Shown: positions 23,225-32,747, numbered from the stretch's first letter. The stretch is 32,747 nt of DNA from Bdellovibrionales bacterium (GCA_947462765.1 CANHQK010000025.1:1-32747); one strand, 5' to 3'. A program made the numbers and translations. The notes: generated by a model from the letters alone, not told the origin.

Positions 23225-24595
23225 ATGGGGTTCGGTTTTGGCTTAGTCATCCTGGCTTTGGCACAGGGCGCGCTCGCGAGTGGGATATCCGATGATTTGA
23301 GACGTCTTGAAAGGTGTCACGGATTGTTTGTAGGTGAACGGATCTCCAAACAGTCGCCCTTGTATGTGGCTGTGATATCCGGCGCAATGTCCGGGACAGA
23401 TGCCTGTATGAATCTCCTCGATCAGGCCCGAATTGGCCAAGACGGTCGAATTCCCCACGTCAATGGCGCTCCTGAACTGACCGGACATAAGATTCTTTCC
23501 AATCTTGTTCAGTTCCATCGATCGCAGTTGGAGAGTCCCGATTTCAATGCCGCATCCGGTGGCGTCCGCACCCGGGAAATGGATCTGTTCGACGCTAATG
23601 AACCCGCTTTTCATTTTGTTTACTCCCTCCTCAAGTCAGGCGAGCCCTACTCCAATGTTGTGACAAGGCCTTTCGGCATCCGTGCGATCCGGTATACTGC
23701 CCGGACTACGCCGAGGACTCGTCGAGTGGTGGATTCGGGAGCGATCCTCTATTCACAAGGACCTGGGCCCACACCCGCAGCCTGGAACCCGACATTGATT
23801 GATACTGGGAGGATTGCCGGGCTTGTTCCGGACTCGGTTCAGAACCCAGTTCAGATCCTCGAGACTTCCCAAGCACAGTACCAGGGTAGGAATACGAATG
23901 CCCATTTTGGTGGTGGATTTTTGGGCTCCCAAGCCTATCTTTTGGCCACTTGGAATGGTTCCAACTTCAGGGTCTGGGCGAAAGACCTTCTTGCTGATGC
24001 TCTGTGCAAGGACATTCCGGTTTTACGTTCGCTGGATGTCTTACAGGCCGTGAAACCCGAATCCACTTTCGCTTGGAGGCAGGGAATCTCCTGCATGCAG
24101 TGCCATGAGACGATGGACCCCGTCTCTGCTGCGATGCGAACCCAGGGGCTGATCCGTGCCTCGCCGGTCAATGAGGCGCGATTTTGGGTTTCGCGACCGA
24201 TCGATCGGCCTTCTGCTCCGTACCCCTCCATGTCACCCGATCCGGACTATAGTCGCAGACCTCCGGACTATTACCTCAAATACAGGTCTTTCGATGGGAC
24301 ACTGGTGAATTTAGAGGGTACCGGTGTTGCCTCCTTGGGTCAGGCCTTAGCCAGTCGTGATGACCTTTATGTTTGTGCTGCAAAGAGGTATTTCCAGTTT
24401 TTAACTGGAATCGAGGCGGATATCCGTGACGATTCCGACCCGCTCAATCCGCTTGATCTTTCTCCCTCCGAGAAGAAGTACCGACAGCGGGTGATCGACC
24501 TCGGAAAACAATTGAAACAGGATCAAAGTGCGCGTGAGCTACTTAAGCGGATCATCAGCTCGCCCACATTCATCTATCCGGATCGGGGAGTGTGA
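23225..24595 (+). CDS. Secreted CxxCH protein with DUF1585-like C-terminus
   Basis: This 456-residue protein has a signal peptide (about residues 1-19, GFGFGLVILALAQGALAS). A single c-type haem motif CMQCH is at 290-294, in the context RQGISCMQCHETMDP. The C-terminal 100 residues (DGTLVNLEGTGVASLGQAL, then CAAKRYFQFLTGIEAD and LLKRIISSPTFIYPD) resemble DUF1585/DUF1588-type ends of large Planctomycetes and Bdellovibrionota cytochrome-like proteins. It heads a three-gene operon with a Tat-exported DUF1501-like protein and a lipoprotein. A redox or periplasmic binding role is likely but unproven. No clear ribosome binding site is present before the ATG. Confidence 0.75.
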   Translation: MGFGFGLVILALAQGALASGISDDLRRLERCHGLFVGERISKQSPLYVAVISGAMSGTDACMNLLDQARIGQDGRIPHVNGAPELTGHKILSNLVQFHRSQLESPDFNAASGGVRTREMDLFDANEPAFHFVYSLLKSGEPYSNVVTRPFGIRAIRYTARTTPRTRRVVDSGAILYSQGPGPTPAAWNPTLIDTGRIAGLVPDSVQNPVQILETSQAQYQGRNTNAHFGGGFLGSQAYLLATWNGSNFRVWAKDLLADALCKDIPVLRSLDVLQAVKPESTFAWRQGISCMQCHETMDPVSAAMRTQGLIRASPVNEARFWVSRPIDRPSAPYPSMSPDPDYSRRPPDYYLKYRSFDGTLVNLEGTGVASLGQALASRDDLYVCAAKRYFQFLTGIEADIRDDSDPLNPLDLSPSEKKYRQRVIDLGKQLKQDQSARELLKRIISSPTFIYPDRGV

Positions 24596-24600
24596 CTCGC

Positions 24601-26301
24601 ATGAACAGAAGGTCTTTTCTGAAAAAAACAGCCGGTGGTTTGGGCGGCGCATATTTGCTCACTTCGCCCCTCCAATTGATGCTAGGAAACATCCTATCTT
24701 CGGTATTTCAACGAGCAATGGCTCTCGAGCAGGGTGAGGCCGGATTCTTGGATAGGAAGCTCATCAATGTCTCGTTAAATGGAGGATCATCGAGATGGAT
24801 GTTCGACCTTCCTTTAAGACCAAATGGCAATGATGCTTTTCAGTACAACGCAATCAATGATCCAAGAACCTCCATGCTGATCACCAAGTTGAACCCTGAC
24901 CCCTTGGGGCCCGGAGGATTCACTGGGGAATATGCAACGGTCGAGGTCGGCGGATACCACTTGCCAGCTATGTGGGGCGGTAAGATCGCCACGGTCGGTG
25001 GCGGCTCAGAAAACATGTCGGTTTTGGCTGCCAACATGCTTTTTATGAGGGGTATCAAATCTATTGATTCACACAGTCTGGGTAGAACCCTGCAGACCAA
25101 GCCCTCTGGAGACGTTTCTCTCGGGGGAGCAGTTGCCGATCGGGCCACGACTGTCTTGCCAGCACTGAGCATGGGAGTGATCAACGGTGCTTTCAAATCA
25201 GGGAAGGGAATCGCTCCCCAGGAGATGCCCCTGACCGACCCCTTTACTACAGCTTTTCTTCCATTCAACTCGGCCATGTCTTTGCGTTCAAATTCCGGTT
25301 CCACGGCTGCTGCCATCGATGTCGCACTCGATGTCATGCGTGCGAAAGCGGGGAGCCGGCATAAAATGGTTCCTTTCACTTTTGAAGATCGGATCAATGC
25401 AAGAAAGCTGATGACCACTCAGTTTTCGAATCTTGCGGGTGCGTACACTGATTTACGAGCCAAGTACCAAAATCTGATCTCACGCGCACTCAGTGATGTC
25501 TCACTCAGGCAAGCGGGTGTGGATGATGTAGTGGTTCCGGGGGGAGCGAGCGGCCAATTTAGGATTAGTAATGGTACAACCCAGACTTTTTACACAGGGT
25601 CTAATTTGAGCTCTATCACAGATGCCCAGTCCGGGGTGGGTCGACTTGCAGAGATGATGGCTGTCGCCGAATTCATGATTTGCGGAGGGAGCTTCAACCG
25701 GAGTTTCTCTTCCACACTCCATGCAGAGCTGGGTGGCGTTGGAGGAGTGTTTGACTCGCTCACGGTAGATGGTGTCACCACCCAAGCGCAGCGCATGAAC
25801 CTGATTTCAGATGCGCATTTCACCGGTTCTTACATCCAACTAGTCCAATTTACCCGTTACTACCGGGCACTCGCCTCTTGTCTGCACGAGCTGGTTCAAA
25901 AATTGAAAGCGGTTCCTTCCGGTGGAGGGACCCTTTTCGATAAAACGGTGATTTCGATTCATTCGGAGTTCAGTCGCAGTGCTCGCGATGCCGGGGATGG
26001 AGCCGACCATGGACCGAATGGGAGCTGTTATACCGTTCTTTCGGGGATGGTTCCACAGACTCTAGTGGTGGGAGACATCGCCAAAAACGGAGGCTCTAAC
26101 GGATACCGTGGAACCTGGGGTACTGGTGCCCCCATGATAGAGTTTACCAATCAGCAAGCTGTGGTCGGCAATGCGGCATCCACGGTAGCACTCATGCTCG
26201 GTTTTCCGACACCTACTCCGAATAATGCGCCTTTCGTTAATTTGAATCCAAGCACCGGAAAAGTTGTCTCGACGGTGAGTCGGGCAAAGAATGTGGGGTG
26301 A
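24601..26301 (+). CDS. Tat-exported DUF1501-like protein
   Basis: From ATG 24601 this is a 566-residue protein starting with a twin-arginine signal (MNRRSFLKKTAGGLGGAYLL). The C-terminal part carries the DUF1501-type stretch ISIHSEFSRSARDAGDGADHGPNG, which resembles the metal-binding region of the sulfatase/phosphatase-like fold. Tat export implies folding, often with a cofactor, before transport. Proteins of this family are regularly encoded beside cytochrome-like DUF1588/1585 partners, as here; the function is unknown. A GTG at 24592 overlaps the upstream stop, but GGGGAG is better spaced for ATG 24601. The gene is separated by only 3 bp from the next one. Confidence 0.8.
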   Translation: MNRRSFLKKTAGGLGGAYLLTSPLQLMLGNILSSVFQRAMALEQGEAGFLDRKLINVSLNGGSSRWMFDLPLRPNGNDAFQYNAINDPRTSMLITKLNPDPLGPGGFTGEYATVEVGGYHLPAMWGGKIATVGGGSENMSVLAANMLFMRGIKSIDSHSLGRTLQTKPSGDVSLGGAVADRATTVLPALSMGVINGAFKSGKGIAPQEMPLTDPFTTAFLPFNSAMSLRSNSGSTAAAIDVALDVMRAKAGSRHKMVPFTFEDRINARKLMTTQFSNLAGAYTDLRAKYQNLISRALSDVSLRQAGVDDVVVPGGASGQFRISNGTTQTFYTGSNLSSITDAQSGVGRLAEMMAVAEFMICGGSFNRSFSSTLHAELGGVGGVFDSLTVDGVTTQAQRMNLISDAHFTGSYIQLVQFTRYYRALASCLHELVQKLKAVPSGGGTLFDKTVISIHSEFSRSARDAGDGADHGPNGSCYTVLSGMVPQTLVVGDIAKNGGSNGYRGTWGTGAPMIEFTNQQAVVGNAASTVALMLGFPTPTPNNAPFVNLNPSTGKVVSTVSRAKNVG

Positions 26302-26304
26302 GGC

Positions 26305-27003
26305 ATGAGAGTGAATTGTATTTCTTTCGGTTTGGGGATTGGTCTCATGGTTTCTACCAGCGCTTGCTTCCAGTCTACAGAATTGAAATTCAATGACCAG
26401 AATGCCGCGGTTGCTTCTGGGCGGATTCCCGCTAGCGTCGCTGAAGATTACTCCTTGGAGCTCCCGATCGGAAATCGGCACTATGTGTTTTCAGTGCTTA
26501 GTCAGGTGTTTGCAATACCTGAAGTCAGTGGCGATGCTGATGCACTTCGCACGGATATCTTTTTTAAGAAAGAGTTTGGGGGAGGGTGCGATCTGTATGG
26601 TGTTTCTGAAATTACTGTGAATGGTACTGTCACCTCTGAATTTGCAAGTTCACGGTGTATCCAAGGGATTACTTCCGATCTCAAGGCAACGTCCAATCCC
26701 ATGAGGTACGCCTGGACAGCAAAGACATGTGAAAGTCTGATAGTGAGTAAGCCCACCCGCTATGCGGCGGCAATGAATCAGATATTAACCGGGTGGTCGG
26801 TCGGTTCGTCGCAAGTTCAGCACAGGCCCAGTCCCGATACCGTTAAAAAAGCATACGGACTATTTTTCCAAGGTAGGGACCCGGATGCCGATGAAGTGGC
26901 CGCTTTATTGCAGTTGGGGGCTACCGCTTCGAATAACGATGATGCCTGGCGTCTTATTTTGATTTCACTTTGTGTGAACCCCGAATGGCAGAGTTTGATT
27001 TAG
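26305..27003 (+). CDS. Putative lipoprotein, third gene of the DUF1501 operon
   Basis: This 232-residue protein has an export signal ending in a cysteine (VSTSAC, Cys21), a plausible though imperfect lipobox. The mature part includes paired cysteines (GGGCDLYG, SSRCIQG, AKTCES) and a C-terminal segment (GLFFQGRDPDADEVAALLQLG, then ILISLCVNPEWQSLI) reminiscent of the end regions of DUF1588/DUF1800-type partner proteins. It lacks a haem motif. The ATG comes 3 bp after the upstream stop. Its TAG stop overlaps the convergent gene's stop (shared bases TTAG at 27000-27003), so the two operons meet with no spacer or terminator. Confidence 0.7.
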   Translation: MRVNCISFGLGIGLMVSTSACFQSTELKFNDQNAAVASGRIPASVAEDYSLELPIGNRHYVFSVLSQVFAIPEVSGDADALRTDIFFKKEFGGGCDLYGVSEITVNGTVTSEFASSRCIQGITSDLKATSNPMRYAWTAKTCESLIVSKPTRYAAAMNQILTGWSVGSSQVQHRPSPDTVKKAYGLFFQGRDPDADEVAALLQLGATASNNDDAWRLILISLCVNPEWQSLI

Positions 27004-27902
27004 AGTATCCCGCCCAGCCCTATCGACCATATGGTTGAGGGGCGCGCAATTGTTCGTCCGAAGTCGGTCTCGAGGTACAAATGCCCGAATCTCCACCTCG
27101 AGAAGAGAGAAAGCGTAAAGCTGAGCGTCTTGTCTTGTTCCACTGTATAGGCCGGGTCAGACGGACTGGTGAGGTTTTGCCGGACGTAGAGAGCACTTCC
27201 TCTCAGGCCCACCTCCGAGCCCGTTGAGGAGACGATCTTTCCAACGCCCAATGAGAATCGGCCACCGATTGCAGGGACCTGCGACTGTTGGTACTCAACC
27301 AAACCCTGAATTGCGCTGACTCCACCTGATCCGTACAGCCCGCTTAGATCGACACTGAGAGCCCAGAATCGGTTTTCCAGGCTGGCCCCAATACCAGGGC
27401 AAAAACCGAGATTTGTAGTGAGGAGGCTTGTTCTTTCAAACGGACCCTTCAAGGATGCCTGACTCTGCCAACTCATGTAGTGAATAAAGCCACGCCATCT
27501 GACTCGGTATCGGCGCTCTTCCAGTTGCGACAAGTGTGCCTTGATCCGGTCAGCGGTGGCGTCGACCTCATCTTCCCGGTACTCGAGTTTTCCCAAAGCT
27601 TTTCGAAAGAATTCAAAAAGAGGAGTGTCCCGGTTTAGGCTTGCATCGATGGATTTGGCTGTGGAGATTTTATTGGCGTAGCCGGTATAGATCTTGAACA
27701 ATAGCTCCTTGTATTCTTTGCTGAATTCATTCTCCCTGGCTTCACTCCCATCGTTGACCGCTTTCTTGATCTTGCCTGTTTCGACGGGATGGTTTTTGTT
27801 GAAAGCTTTGATCCAATCGCTTAGTGACTCGGCACTGAATGCCTGTGCAGGTAGAAGAATGAAGCACACAAAAATAGCAAGACGGGAGGGGATGCCTATC
27901 AT
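27000..27902 (-). CDS. Secreted protein with C-terminal beta-barrel, end of haem-porin operon
   Basis: From ATG 27902 this is a 300-residue protein with a signal peptide (about residues 1-23, ending AFSAES). A helical, charged region follows (about 25-130, with repeated Lys/Glu segments such as KEYKELLFKIYTGYANKIS). The last 150 residues have the strand alternation of an outer-membrane barrel (GFIHYMSWQSQAS, FWALSVDLSGLYG, SFTLSLFSRWRF, STIWSIGLGGIL). ATG 27908 is an equally possible start. ATG 27902 overlaps the upstream stop as ATGA. The family is not recognised; its place in the operon suggests it works with the haem-bearing barrel upstream. Confidence 0.65.
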   Translation of the reverse strand: MIGIPSRLAIFVCFILLPAQAFSAESLSDWIKAFNKNHPVETGKIKKAVNDGSEARENEFSKEYKELLFKIYTGYANKISTAKSIDASLNRDTPLFEFFRKALGKLEYREDEVDATADRIKAHLSQLEERRYRVRWRGFIHYMSWQSQASLKGPFERTSLLTTNLGFCPGIGASLENRFWALSVDLSGLYGSGGVSAIQGLVEYQQSQVPAIGGRFSLGVGKIVSSTGSEVGLRGSALYVRQNLTSPSDPAYTVEQDKTLSFTLSLFSRWRFGHLYLETDFGRTIARPSTIWSIGLGGIL

Positions 27903-29053
27903 AGCCATACATTCGTCTGGAATAGGATGGTCCAGCCGTCCTGTGTGGATGCATTCGGATTGAAGGTCCGGGTTTGGTAGAGGTCTGTTCGCAGTTCCAG
28001 TTTTTGTACAGGGAAGAACTGGAACCCGGGTCCCCATCGAATCGTGGTTGCAGCATTCGAGAGGTCGCTTTTCAGATACTCGATGTTGGTCAGGCAGTAT
28101 AAACCCCGTATGGGGCGGGTATAGGTCTGGAGGAGCGCGTACCGGCCGATGCGGTCCCCCCTCGAGCCCAAAGAGATCCTTTCTGTTTGTCCCGCCTCGA
28201 TCAAGATCGCGGATCCCTCAGACAAGGAGAGCCTCGCATGCGTCGAGTAGGAAAGGAGTCTGACATAGTCATTTTTTGATGACATCAGGGAGAGTCCGAC
28301 TCTATGGTCATTGAATATCTGGCGTTCAATTTGGGTGCTGGCTCCGACTTGCCTGAGATCACGCGCTTGGAGCAGGTTGCCCATGAATCCATGGATTGCA
28401 CCCTCCCAGCCATTGAATAGTCCGTGGATCATCACCCCGTGTGTCTGATCATTTTGGGTTGTCTCGGGGAGGATCCTACTGTAGGCGATGTGTTCAGCAA
28501 TCCGGATCCCATAGGCCTTGTCCATCAGGCCCGCGTATACACCTATCTCGGGATTGATTCGGTATCCTACATAGTGTTCCCTGGTTCTCACCTTTCGTTT
28601 GTCTTGTCCGCTAGCTTTCGCAGAGTTTGAGCTTGGGTTGTATCCGATTTCGCCTACGAAAGTGAGCCGGTCATTTTCAAGAAATTTGAGAATGAGCTGT
28701 CCACCGGCCTGCATATGAATCCAGGACCACTTTTCGCTCGGGGTTCCCACTGAAGAGATCATCTCCATTCCGCGATAGTTCGCTTGAGCCCGAACGTGAC
28801 GCTGAACCGGGGTACGGAATAGGAATCCAGAAAGTGAGGCGATTTTTTCTTCGGACCAAGACTTGGGGTAGAGGGCTCCAGAGGCGATTCCATCGGCTCC
28901 CACAGCCCGTCCATAGTCAGTCAGGGGTCCGTTCCCCATCGGATTGTAGTGGCAGTTCATGCACGAAGGGTAACCGTGTCCGATGAACTGTGGATAGCTC
29001 TGGGCAGCCAGCGGTGTGATGAAAAGCGCCAAAGCCAAGAAGAGACGCTTCAT
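27899..29053 (-). CDS. Haem-motif/outer-membrane barrel fusion, Cyc2-like porin-cytochrome candidate
   Basis: This 384-residue protein has a signal peptide (about residues 1-20) and a single CxxCH motif at 31-35 (YPSCMNCHYNPMGNGPLTDYGR). It then has about 330 residues of barrel-like alternating strands that end in an aromatic-rich terminal strand (GWTILFQTNVWL). One small haem domain joined to a porin is the architecture of Cyc2-type fused porin-cytochromes, which carry electrons across the outer membrane in iron oxidisers. The CxxCHxNPxGxGxLTxYGR signature is shared by a broad family of uncharacterised proteins, so iron oxidation is not established. It overlaps both neighbours by 4 nt (ATGA). 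Confidence 0.72.
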   Translation of the reverse strand: MKRLFLALALFITPLAAQSYPQFIGHGYPSCMNCHYNPMGNGPLTDYGRAVGADGIASGALYPKSWSEEKIASLSGFLFRTPVQRHVRAQANYRGMEMISSVGTPSEKWSWIHMQAGGQLILKFLENDRLTFVGEIGYNPSSNSAKASGQDKRKVRTREHYVGYRINPEIGVYAGLMDKAYGIRIAEHIAYSRILPETTQNDQTHGVMIHGLFNGWEGAIHGFMGNLLQARDLRQVGASTQIERQIFNDHRVGLSLMSSKNDYVRLLSYSTHARLSLSEGSAILIEAGQTERISLGSRGDRIGRYALLQTYTRPIRGLYCLTNIEYLKSDLSNAATTIRWGPGFQFFPVQKLELRTDLYQTRTFNPNASTQDGWTILFQTNVWL

Positions 29054-29427
29054 GGGATATTATTGATCCACGTTTTTAGCGTGTTAAAGTCTGCGGAGTT
29101 CAAGGTGTTGGAAGGTGGCATATTCCCCGTTCCGTTCTGAAAGGTTTTCTGTATCAGTACCGAATTGCTTGCCTGACCCTTGATGACATACCCGGATGCG
29201 AGCCAGAGCGCGTTCGAATTCAAGTTATTCCACGAAGAGTGTGAATGACAGGAGGCACATTGGGCTTGGACGATTGAGAATGCAGCGGCAAAGTTAGGGT
29301 CCCCGCCCGTCTCAATCACTGTTTCAGTGTAGACACTGTCGTCTTGTGAGCTCGAATTGTATGCAGCACAAGAAGTTGCCAGGAATGCGATCAGGAATGC
29401 ATAAGAAAGTGAATGTTTTAGCGTCAT
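29050..29427 (-). CDS. Monohaem c-type cytochrome lipoprotein
   Basis: This 125-residue protein has a lipoprotein signal with Cys20 in FLATSC. The cytochrome c domain has haem motif CASCH at 57-61 and the probable distal ligand Met103 in GNMPPS. It would be anchored in a membrane facing the periplasm and could pass electrons to the haem-porin fusion encoded just downstream, which it overlaps by 4 nt. The size is that of a small class I cytochrome. Electron transfer is well supported by motifs; the partner is inferred from the operon. Confidence 0.87.
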   Translation of the reverse strand: MTLKHSLSYAFLIAFLATSCAAYNSSSQDDSVYTETVIETGGDPNFAAAFSIVQAQCASCHSHSSWNNLNSNALWLASGYVIKGQASNSVLIQKTFQNGTGNMPPSNTLNSADFNTLKTWINNIP

Positions 29428-29912
29428 TTCTTCGGAGCTGGCAGTCGTACTTCTACATTGACCACATCATTGACTTCCACTCCGAGGTATTTGGCATGGG
29501 GCATTTTGAAGTCTGCCGAGTTCAACTCAAACCTGGCCAATATAGCCTGATCTTTTTCTTCGTAACTGAATGAGATGTCTCTCTTGATCCCGTTCAATTC
29601 AAGAGAGCCGGTGCCTTTTCCTCCACTGGCTTTCAATCCGGATAAGACGGCTTTCGGCTGGGTTTCACAACCGAGATGTTTGCAGAAATGCTCGTCCCTC
29701 AAGGTCATTCCTGTTTTGAATGAGTCGAGGGCCACGCTCAGCTTCTGAGACGTGAGTTCGGCGCCTGTCCGGCTCAGGTCCCCTTTCAGTCGGTCACTTT
29801 TGGCGACAAAGGACCCAGCCGGAGTCAGTTTGACTGCGATTTGTATCGTGCCTTCAGCATGACTGAGTAGGGGGAAGCATATCAAAAATGCAGTGATCCA
29901 ATTCTTGTGCAT
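29424..29912 (-). CDS. YceI-family periplasmic protein
   Basis: This 162-residue protein has a signal peptide (about residues 1-19, ending SHA) and the YceI lipocalin-like pattern. MTLRDEHFCKHLGC is the typical MRDxHF segment, preceded by LSVALDSFKTG and followed by GSLELNGIKRDISF. YceI proteins bind polyisoprenoids or related hydrophobic molecules and are often encoded near cytochromes. The gene lies 12 bp downstream of the matrixin gene and overlaps the cytochrome lipoprotein gene by 4 nt, so it belongs to the same operon. Confidence 0.85.
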   Translation of the reverse strand: MHKNWITAFLICFPLLSHAEGTIQIAVKLTPAGSFVAKSDRLKGDLSRTGAELTSQKLSVALDSFKTGMTLRDEHFCKHLGCETQPKAVLSGLKASGGKGTGSLELNGIKRDISFSYEEKDQAILARFELNSADFKMPHAKYLGVEVNDVVNVEVRLPAPKK

Positions 29913-29924
29913 AGGTTTTTTTCT

Positions 29925-30515
29925 TTACTGGTCCCCGGTGAGTATTTTCAGGGTTGCGACATCGACGCTCAGGTGGTTGATGTGGCCTCCGGGGCTCGCA
30001 TCAGGGAACATGATGTCGTTCGGGTTGTCATTGTGGGAGAGTCCGATGAAATGACCGAGTTCATGTGCGAAGGTTTTCCTCGCGCTGATCCGGGAATCCC
30101 GAATACAGTCACCCGGGCAAAAACTCTGTGTACCATTGATCATGACCATGGCTGCTTGAATCCCTTCAGATTCGGTCTGGACAGTGGTCATTCCCACAAA
30201 GCTTTGAGCAAAAGGCCAAGGGTTTTGGAAGAAGATGACGTTGCCAAGAATCGAGCTGGGCCGGGAAGGGTCTCCGGCGTAGGGTGTTCCGCCCCGCCAC
30301 TGTCCCTTGAAGTCAAACACGGGCTTTCCAGCTTTTTGCTCCCAGTACCGGAATGCGTCTTGTAGGTCGCTCATGGCTTGAGGATTGGTGACAATAGTGG
30401 CATCACCGTAGATAGGAACCGGTAGCTTTTGCCAGCCGGTGTGACTCGCACCTCCACAAGAGGTGACGCCTAATGAGATCAGGAACAATGTGACCAGCCT
30501 TCCTTGGCAAATCAT
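29925..30515 (-). CDS. Matrixin-like zinc metalloprotease lipoprotein
   Basis: This 196-residue protein has a lipoprotein signal (VTSC, Cys20). The metzincin zinc site HELGHFIGLSH is at about 151-161 and a Met-turn (DIMFPD) at about 169. This is the matrixin (M10-like) active site, with His151, His155 and His161 as zinc ligands and Glu152 as catalytic base. It is probably an active, membrane-anchored protease. It has a GGGAG-type ribosome binding site and appears to head the operon that continues into YceI and the haem proteins. Its relation to them is unclear. Confidence 0.87.
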   Translation of the reverse strand: MICQGRLVTLFLISLGVTSCGGASHTGWQKLPVPIYGDATIVTNPQAMSDLQDAFRYWEQKAGKPVFDFKGQWRGGTPYAGDPSRPSSILGNVIFFQNPWPFAQSFVGMTTVQTESEGIQAAMVMINGTQSFCPGDCIRDSRISARKTFAHELGHFIGLSHNDNPNDIMFPDASPGGHINHLSVDVATLKILTGDQ

Positions 30516-30554
30516 GAGGTACTCCCACCTCTGATTATTCCATGGGTCGAGTTT

Positions 30555-30604
30555 AAAAAACCAGATTCGCTAGTGGGCAATGTTTGCCCCGCCGGCTAAC
30601 TAGC
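30555..30604 (-). terminator. Probable terminator after the quinone oxidoreductase-like gene
   Basis: On the minus strand, nested inverted repeats GCTAGT/ACTAGC and GGGCAA/TTGCCC form a stem-loop beginning 20 bp beyond the stop at 30624. It is followed by six Ts after a short gap (complement of 30555-30560). It separates this gene from the matrixin operon. Confidence 0.6.
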
Positions 30605-30623
30605 TGAAACAGGGGGTTCGGTG

Positions 30624-31658
30624 TCAGAATCCCAGCACAATTTTACCTGTGGACGCTCCTGACTCAATGAGTCGATGGGCGTTTGCGGCATCAATTGCAT
30701 CGAATCGTGTGATTTTCGGTGGTAGCAATTGTCCTTTCTCGACCATATCCAAAAGACTCCGCATTCCTTCGAGGAGGAGGTCGTCCCGATCGAAAAGGAA
30801 TGAAAGATTGAATCCAATGACACTCTTGTTGTCTGTGATGAGATCCATCGGGTTGAATCTGGGCATCTTCCAGAGTCCGATTGCAGCCTTCAGGTAGTTC
30901 ATCCGTCCTGTGCTGGTTTGGGGTAAGATCCCGTGTGATCCGTATACGATCAGCTTTCCGGTGGCTCGGAGTGCCGTGTAACTCCCACGCAGGGTTTCTG
31001 GTCCGTTAGCATCCAGGACCGCATCATATCCGTTTGGACAAACCGACCTCACGATTGTCCAAAGGTCAGCGGAGGACTTGTCGATCACATGGTGTGCCCC
31101 GAGACTTTTGACATAGCTCACTTTGTGAGGACTTCCCACTACACCTGTAATGCTGAAGCCTCTGGCCCGTGCCAGTTGGACCAGGGCTGAGCCGACACCA
31201 CCACCGGCCGAATGGATGAGGATGGAAGCACCCTCGGGAATCCGTACCAATTGAAATAGAGCGTGGTAGGCAGTCATGAATACGGCTGGAAATCCAGCGG
31301 CCTCTTCGAGAGAGAAACGGTCCGGGATCGTGTAAAGTTGCTTCTCCGGGACGCAGATCTGGGATGCGTACCCGTTGAAGAAGGTGATTCCGAATACACG
31401 ATCACCGCTCTTGAACCGCGTGACATCGGGCCCTGTATTCCCTACGATTCCTGAGAATTCGAAACCCGGAGTGATGGGCCAACCCACCATTCTTTTAGCG
31501 GATTCGTAGACCCCCCAGCGTACACAAACGTCCGCATAATTGACTCCAGCGGCACGGGTGTTGACCACCACCTCACCCGGTCCGGGAATAAGGTCGGGAT
31601 GCTCTTCAAGAGTCATTTTTTCGTGATTCCCGGGTGAATGAATGACTATTTTTTTCAT
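30624..31658 (-). CDS. Medium-chain oxidoreductase, quinone reductase/VAT1-like
   Basis: This 344-residue protein belongs to the zinc-independent branch of the medium-chain dehydrogenase/reductase superfamily. It has a GroES-like N-terminal half (GPGEVVVNTRAAGVNYADVCVRWG, TPGFEFSGIV, GDRVFG) and a Rossmann half with the NADPH loop SAGGGVGSALVQLA (about 155-168). The lack of structural zinc cysteines and the sequence around the active site suggest a quinone oxidoreductase or VAT1-like enzyme. The substrate is unknown. A possible frameshifted secreted gene ends 6 bp upstream of its ATG, and a terminator follows. Confidence 0.9.
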   Translation of the reverse strand: MKKIVIHSPGNHEKMTLEEHPDLIPGPGEVVVNTRAAGVNYADVCVRWGVYESAKRMVGWPITPGFEFSGIVGNTGPDVTRFKSGDRVFGITFFNGYASQICVPEKQLYTIPDRFSLEEAAGFPAVFMTAYHALFQLVRIPEGASILIHSAGGGVGSALVQLARARGFSITGVVGSPHKVSYVKSLGAHHVIDKSSADLWTIVRSVCPNGYDAVLDANGPETLRGSYTALRATGKLIVYGSHGILPQTSTGRMNYLKAAIGLWKMPRFNPMDLITDNKSVIGFNLSFLFDRDDLLLEGMRSLLDMVEKGQLLPPKITRFDAIDAANAHRLIESGASTGKIVLGF

Positions 31659-32018: not shown

Positions 32019-32747
32019 ATGCGACCACTCATCCTTCAGACAGAGGAAGTGTATCAATTCAAACTTCAGGGCTTCTCTGCGGCGAGTGGACTGATTATTC
32101 AGGGAGATAGGCTCTTTTGCGTGGCAGATGACGAGTTGGGCCTGGTTTCAATCCCCATGACCCTGGAGGGCCCCGAGGCTTGGATTCCCCTGTTTCCTGG
32201 ACAGCTGCCTGAGGATCCAATAGCCCGAAAGAAGACGAAGCCGGACATTGAAATACTGGTCGAACTGCCCGAAGCCAGGACTATTCTTGGTTTGCCATCG
32301 GGGTCGACGCCCTTCCGGGACCGTGGTGTTCTGGTGGATTCCAATCAGCAAGTGAATCCATTGAGCTTCAGTCGGACTTACGAGGCGCTCAGGAAGAAAA
32401 TTCCAGAACTGAATCTCGAGGGTGCGGTGGTGACAGATGGCCGTATCCGTCTTTTCCAAAGGGGTAACGGTCAGGAGGGTTTCAATGGAATCCTCGACCT
32501 GCCTTAGAGCGACTTTTTGGCGGATCGCCCGGGTTCATTTCAGTTTCAGCCGGTCGATCTCGGGCTAAGTGCTGATCAATCGCCTTGGGGGTTCACCGAT
32601 GCTTGTCTGGATGGAGACTCGATCTGGTTTCTAGCGGTTTCAGAGGCCTCTCGCTCGACTTACCATGATGGTTCCTACGGAGGGGCGAAGCTCGGGCGTA
32701 TGGACTTGTCGGGGCGAGTCCTGGAGATCCATTCTTTGGATGTGCCT
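32019..32747 (+). pseudogene. DUF6929-like protein gene with in-frame TAG, continuing past the window edge
   Basis: The first 162 residues resemble DUF6929-type proteins (ADDELGLVSIPM, ILGLPSGSTPFRDRGVLVD, LNLEGAVVTDGRIRLFQRGNG). A TAG at 32505-32507 ends this frame. The same phase then stays open for 80 more codons to the window edge and reads like real protein (SDFLADRPGSFQFQPVDLGL, then WGFTDACLDGDSIWFLAVSEAS). The break therefore looks like a nonsense mutation or a sequencing error in one longer gene, not the natural end. TAG is used as an ordinary stop at 27001-27003, so general recoding is unlikely. The function of the family is unknown. Confidence 0.65.

Follow-up and report, generated by a model that had tools for sequence, protein, structure and literature searches.

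We consider it somewhat probable that a gene cluster in a 32,747-nt stretch of DNA from a Bdellovibrionales bacterium (the whole of this stretch is called the window) encodes an outer-membrane redox module, in which a Cyc2-like fused cytochrome-porin would exchange electrons with the periplasmic cytochrome pool. The central protein, called the haem barrel here, is predicted from its sequence and structural model to be an exported 16-strand porin with a single N-terminal c-type haem site. Its Cyc2-like plan, together with a lipoprotein cytochrome and a YceI-family protein encoded in the same conserved cluster, appears fitting for electron transfer across the outer membrane.

ORF calls and translations confirmed five minus-strand genes at this locus, from a matrixin-like protease through to a second, smaller barrel (Table 1). 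The sequence-only reading had listed matrixin, YceI, lipoprotein cytochrome, haem-barrel fusion and second barrel as tightly packed genes, and they proved to be real ORFs with a 12-bp gap and with 4-nt overlaps at the YceI/cytochrome and cytochrome/haem-barrel borders, as it had claimed. The 4-nt overlap that it gave for the last gene holds with a start at 27902, but the start conserved among homologues (27908; M-A/V-L/M...) gives an overlap of 10 nt. The extent it assigned to the system, 27000-30515, covers the five genes but leaves out the convergent genes at 23225-27003, which form part of the conserved neighbourhood too. No multihaem protein was found in the cluster, and in a scan of 26800-30800 promoter and terminator sites were no commoner than in shuffled sequences. 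Upstream of the matrixin gene lies a gene for a zinc-type alcohol dehydrogenase/quinone oxidoreductase-like protein (30624-31658, minus strand), which is retained in the same place in the two closest relatives (L046 and L047). A further gene (32019-32507, plus strand) encodes a DUF6929/DUF6910 protein (Pfam, 2e-31) with no relation to the redox module.

Table 1. Features of the redox module and its surroundings in the window.
Feature	Position	Strand	Basis or remark
PSCyt3/PSD2-like (DUF1588/DUF1585) protein	23225..24595	+	Weak Pfam matches, PSD2 0.02 and PSCyt3 0.08
CMQCH motif of PSCyt3/PSD2-like protein	24092-24106	+	Translation
DUF1501-like protein, twin-arginine-type signal	24592..26301	+	Pfam; 4-nt overlap with preceding gene
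Lipoprotein without a family assignment	26305..27003	+	3' end overlaps 3' end of small-barrel gene by 4 nt
Small outer-membrane protein, predicted helical N-terminal domain and 8-strand barrel	27000..27908	-	Start by homology; 27902 alternative
Fused cytochrome-porin (haem barrel), 384 aa	27899..29053	-	ORF; AlphaFold2; Foldseek
Loop between predicted strands 5 and 6 (position of porin pore loop L3)	28445..28522	-	Conservation 2.93 bits
Invariant His188 within strand 5-6 loop	28490-28492	-	Candidate second haem ligand
Invariant Met114 in predicted strand 2	28712..28714	-	Alternative candidate haem ligand
CMNCH haem-binding motif, residues 31-35	28949..28963	-	Translation; one per protein in 78/78 homologues
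Lipoprotein monohaem c-type cytochrome	29050..29427	-	ORF; Cytochrome_CBB3 1e-5
CASCH haem motif of lipoprotein cytochrome	29245-29259	-	Translation
YceI-family periplasmic lipocalin with signal peptide	29424..29912	-	Pfam YceI 1.1e-9
Matrixin-like lipoprotein metalloprotease	29925..30515	-	Peptidase_M10 2.3e-7; lipobox VTSC
Matrixin zinc site HELGHFIGLSH	30033-30065	-	Fits HExxHxxGxxH

The haem barrel was examined by structure prediction and by sequence and profile searches. It comprises a signal peptide (residues 1-19), after which the mature N-terminus reads YPQFIGHGYPSCMNCHYNPMGNGPLTDYGR, a haem domain (residues 20-79) and a 16-strand barrel (residues 87-384). The AlphaFold2 model, built with 78 alignment rows, has a pLDDT of 93 and a pTM of 0.88 and places helices in the first 60 residues, followed by 16 strands. 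Foldseek searches with this model returned 16-strand porins that matched along almost the whole length, among them V. cholerae OmpT (E = 3e-12; TM-score 0.76, by target), OprP, Omp32 and OmpF. A closed barrel is thus predicted, and the haem motif shows no sign of degeneration, as exactly one CxxCH was present in each of the 78 aligned homologues. The haem barrel had no match in Pfam or NCBIfam, tblastn against plasmids gave nothing at E ≤ 1, and a PDB sequence search with the family profile produced no meaningful match. Its porin fold would also suit a pore for the uptake or storage of haem or iron rather than an electron carrier. We regard this function as extremely improbable, given that the covalent c-type motif is invariant in the 78 homologues, that partner cytochromes are present and that iron-uptake genes were not recognised beside the haem barrel.

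Conservation peaked in the haem domain (mean 2.97 bits) and in the loop that joins strands 5 and 6 (2.93 bits), compared with 2.37 bits overall. Outside the CxxCH motif, the only invariant histidine and methionine are His188 (precursor numbering) and Met114, even when paralogues of about 22% identity are included. It is this invariance, extending to the paralogues, that makes the two residues candidates for the second haem ligand. In 16-strand porins, the strand 5-6 loop folds into the pore, suggesting that the conserved surface of the haem barrel faces the pore as well. A tandem pair of haem-barrel paralogues lies on a single contig (L045, of genome G024, and L021).

We compared the haem barrel with Cyc2, the definition of which includes AXPXFAR[Q/K][T/Y] upstream of CxxCH (PMC8406198). 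The references were four full Cyc2-type proteins only (from Acidithiobacillus, Methylocystis, Ideonella and Polymorphobacter), retrieved by searching plasmids with a short consensus probe, and some of these plasmid proteins also depart from the strict Cyc2 signature. Like Cyc2, the haem barrel has a signal peptide, a single N-terminal CxxCH and a C-terminal 16-strand outer-membrane barrel. The family shares with the Cyc2-type proteins an A-x-P-x-F at equal distance before CxxCH and then L-T-x-Y-G-R, with S instead of the first A in the window's own haem barrel; small c-type cytochrome genes likewise follow the fused gene at Cyc2-type loci. The alignment of the family with the four proteins by hhalign (probability 71, E = 3.7e-5) spans 43 columns in the haem domain only, and the barrel part could not be aligned with the Cyc2 barrel. 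In contrast to Cyc2, none of the 78 homologues contains the full signature, of which only A-x-P-x-F is common to both, and none has PXL at +4 after CxxCH. The haem barrel further differs in its longer spacer (N-P-x-G-N-G-P-L) between CxxCH and L-T-x-Y-G-R, in its YceI, 8-strand barrel and PSCyt/DUF1501 neighbours and in its Bdellovibrionota hosts. The Cyc2-type plan put forward in the sequence-only reading therefore stands for the fusion of one N-terminal haem to a 16-strand barrel, but not for the published signature. Its absence in 78/78 rules out strict Cyc2 membership, and for this reason we do not file the haem barrel as Cyc2 despite its Cyc2-type anatomy. The family is apparently a separate, undescribed branch of fused cytochrome-porins that resemble Cyc2.

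The haem-barrel family was present in 205 of 290 Bdellovibrionota genomes (about 70%), all with a completeness of at least 85%. We take its carriers very probably to include the predator B. bacteriovorus HD100. Gene order was surveyed in 80 loci from a genome-contig scan, labelled mostly Bacteriovoracales, Bdellovibrionales and Halobacteriovorax, with partners counted within 3.5 kb. The small barrel was found at 75 of these loci, a small cytochrome at 66, YceI at 50 and matrixin at 4; the corresponding numbers for the 50 fully flanked loci were 48, 45, 31 and 3. The neighbourhood is strongly conserved across the phylum, and chance falls far short of explaining the arrangement: YceI at 31 of 50 fully flanked loci compares with about 1% expected per locus, an estimate that disregards genome kinship among loci that are related and hence not independent trials. 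The order and strand of the module genes varied widely, with co-directional, convergent and divergent arrangements, which favours selected linkage over mere descent. YceI and cytochrome genes also adjoin distant haem-barrel paralogues (about 25% identity), suggesting that this core is old.

The same survey decided the role of the matrixin, which matched Pfam Peptidase_M10 with 31.3 bits (cut-off, 24) and had been placed at the head of the system. Its four occurrences were confined to the window's genus, where its position relative to the module varies between upstream and downstream. A protease that activates or sheds parts of the cytochrome-porin in a matrixin-headed surface system has next to no probability in our estimate: the gene is adjacent in six examined members of the genus, in two different positions, but it is missing from 76 of the 80 loci and from other lineages of the phylum. 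As a general feature such a system is largely refuted, and the matrixin is ruled out as a core part. It is an optional genus-level neighbour, a local add-on.

The lipoprotein cytochrome scored 26.1 bits against Pfam Cytochrome_CBB3, just under the cut-off of 27. Its CASCH motif and its adjacency in 66 of the 80 loci agree with the earlier description of a membrane-anchored monohaem cytochrome ahead of the haem barrel, and its MPP motif is a possible sixth haem ligand. The small barrel had no significant match in Pfam or NCBIfam. Its AlphaFold2 model (pLDDT 96) consists of five helices and an 8-strand barrel, the fold matches were weak and of OmpX/OmpA type, and the N-terminal region looked TPR-like by eye in other members. 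This protein had been thought to be a further electron conduit; with 8 predicted strands and a helical periplasmic domain, it is too small for that, and a conduit of porin size is ruled out. It may instead be a periplasmic docking part.

The YceI protein scored 39.2 bits against its Pfam family (cut-off, 23.7), its signal peptide was read from the sequence, and its membership in the cluster was upheld by this match and by its presence at 50 of the 80 loci. YceI lipocalins bind ubiquinone-8 and adjoin cytochrome b561 genes elsewhere, and in Burkholderia lipid peroxyl radicals are detoxified by YceI lipocalins and their cytochrome b561 partners (PMC9113575). The binding of ubiquinone-8 suggests a quinone link for the module and also supports an alternative, antioxidant repair modelled on the BcnA-LcoA proposal, in which YceI at the outer membrane would pick up oxidised quinones or lipid peroxyl radicals, while the haem barrel and the lipoprotein cytochrome supply the quenching electrons. 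As with BcnA/LcoA, the YceI gene of the module adjoins a cytochrome gene; YceI also recurs beside the distant paralogues, and the genome of this organism encodes an aerobic oxidase. However, the partner in BcnA/LcoA is a cytochrome b561, whereas the module combines c-type cytochromes with an outer-membrane haem porin and has no b561 gene in the cluster. Antioxidant repair has no need for a 16-strand haem porin, and YceI is missing within the flank at many loci. We therefore consider this alternative unlikely.

We also examined the convergent plus-strand genes. The scores of the PSCyt/PSD-like protein were under both Pfam cut-offs; a homologue scored 4e-4 for PSD2, and homologues of the gene were found beside haem barrels. 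The DUF1501-like protein appears from its sequence to be at most a relative of DUF1501, as its Pfam score stayed low (21.5 bits against a cut-off of 27; E = 1.4e-4), and its TAT_signal match (0.02) was also under cut-off. In L136, L139, L141 and L148, genes for the PSD-like, DUF1501, lipoprotein, cytochrome and YceI proteins lie in a single row oriented towards the haem barrel, which ties the window's convergent genes to the system. In genome G109, the haem barrel (2,431,619-2,432,743) and small barrel are followed by a convergent set encoding YceI, two cytochromes and one protein each of the DUF1501-like and PSD-like types. The genes at 23225-27003 are the second, convergent half of the module.

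In Planctomycetes and Verrucomicrobia, PSCyt/PSD genes are paired with DUF1501 genes. The window resembles these pairs in that a haem protein with a PSD-like C-terminus is followed by a DUF1501-like protein, but its pair is very divergent, falls under the Pfam cut-offs and is linked to a haem porin. Verrucomicrobia PSCyt genes occur near sulfatase and carbohydrate-binding genes, and the PSCyt families have no assigned function (PMC5615132). This setting would agree with a role of the PSCyt/PSD and DUF1501 proteins in the oxidative processing of surface or prey polymers, with the haem porin and cytochromes merely draining electrons, as would the fact that roughly half of the haem barrels with full flanks have such genes beside them (nearby in 21 of 42 long-flank loci). 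The other half of the loci have none nearby, the Pfam matches are weak and neither PSCyt/PSD nor DUF1501 families have an assigned function; we hold polymer processing to be very unlikely.

For the redox module around the haem barrel, we propose that the N-terminal haem would sit where the pore opens to the periplasm, its distal side being occupied by either the strand 5-6 loop (His188) or Met114. Because one haem by itself does not reach across the membrane, the substrate has to be soluble and come into the pore, an argument also made for Cyc2 (PMC8406198); a small solute would enter and swap electrons with the haem. The lipoprotein cytochrome would carry electrons between the haem barrel and the pool of periplasmic cytochromes, and YceI may give or take up isoprenoid quinone or lipid. 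Of the two directions, we lean slightly towards inward transfer, as in Cyc2. The genome contains one haem-copper (caa3-type) oxidase gene and a cytochrome c assembly gene, along with genes for cytochrome-bearing oxidase subunits and for alternative-complex-III-like subunits (the latter by ORF reading), so that c-haem attachment and a terminal electron acceptor would be available. We know of no lithotrophy in Bdellovibrionota, which counts against the redox module. MtrCAB, MtoAB and PioAB also combine a barrel with c-type haem at the outer membrane, but they hold a decahaem cytochrome in a 26-strand barrel whereas the haem barrel has one haem fused to 16 strands.

A phylum-wide redox machine, in which YceI would ferry isoprenoid quinone between the inner and outer membranes and the cytochrome-porin and PSCyt/DUF1501-like proteins would exchange electrons with the outside or with prey, is quite unlikely in our judgement; if true, it would represent trans-envelope electron transfer of a kind not previously described, in a largely predatory phylum. 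Fused cytochrome-porins have so far been known chiefly as iron oxidases (Cyc2). The existence of a separate branch, which has conserved partners of its own, suggests that predators living in or on other bacteria run an unexamined outer-membrane redox reaction. The module offers a genetically tractable case for fused cytochrome-porins beyond iron oxidation, and it places YceI and PSCyt/DUF1501, poorly known families, together in one concrete setting. In the open literature searched, we found no description of the module, no mention of Bdellovibrionota in the papers listed on Cyc2, porins and iron oxidation, and nothing on YceI and cytochrome in B. bacteriovorus; for Bdellovibrio cytochrome c and extracellular electron transfer, only a wastewater secretome survey was found.

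At other loci, a protein with a signal peptidase II half (Pfam, 2e-14) and a two-helix HAMP-like half is encoded immediately upstream of the haem barrel or elsewhere in its cluster (L068:5118-5945, plus strand), with similar genes in L069, L070, L071, L078, L081-L083, L085, L087, L091, L150 and L151. It might process the several lipoproteins encoded in the cluster. Its frame can read stop-free into that of the haem barrel and give up to 657 aa (L100:5188-7146, L103:264-2237, L107:1082-3046 and L102:3-1574), which may reflect either a true fusion or an independent internal start. The HAMP-like half has no copy in the window; in relatives it forms a separate gene, about 145 aa long, next to the module (L048:934-1371, minus strand; L049, L054, L055, L059, L063 and L064).
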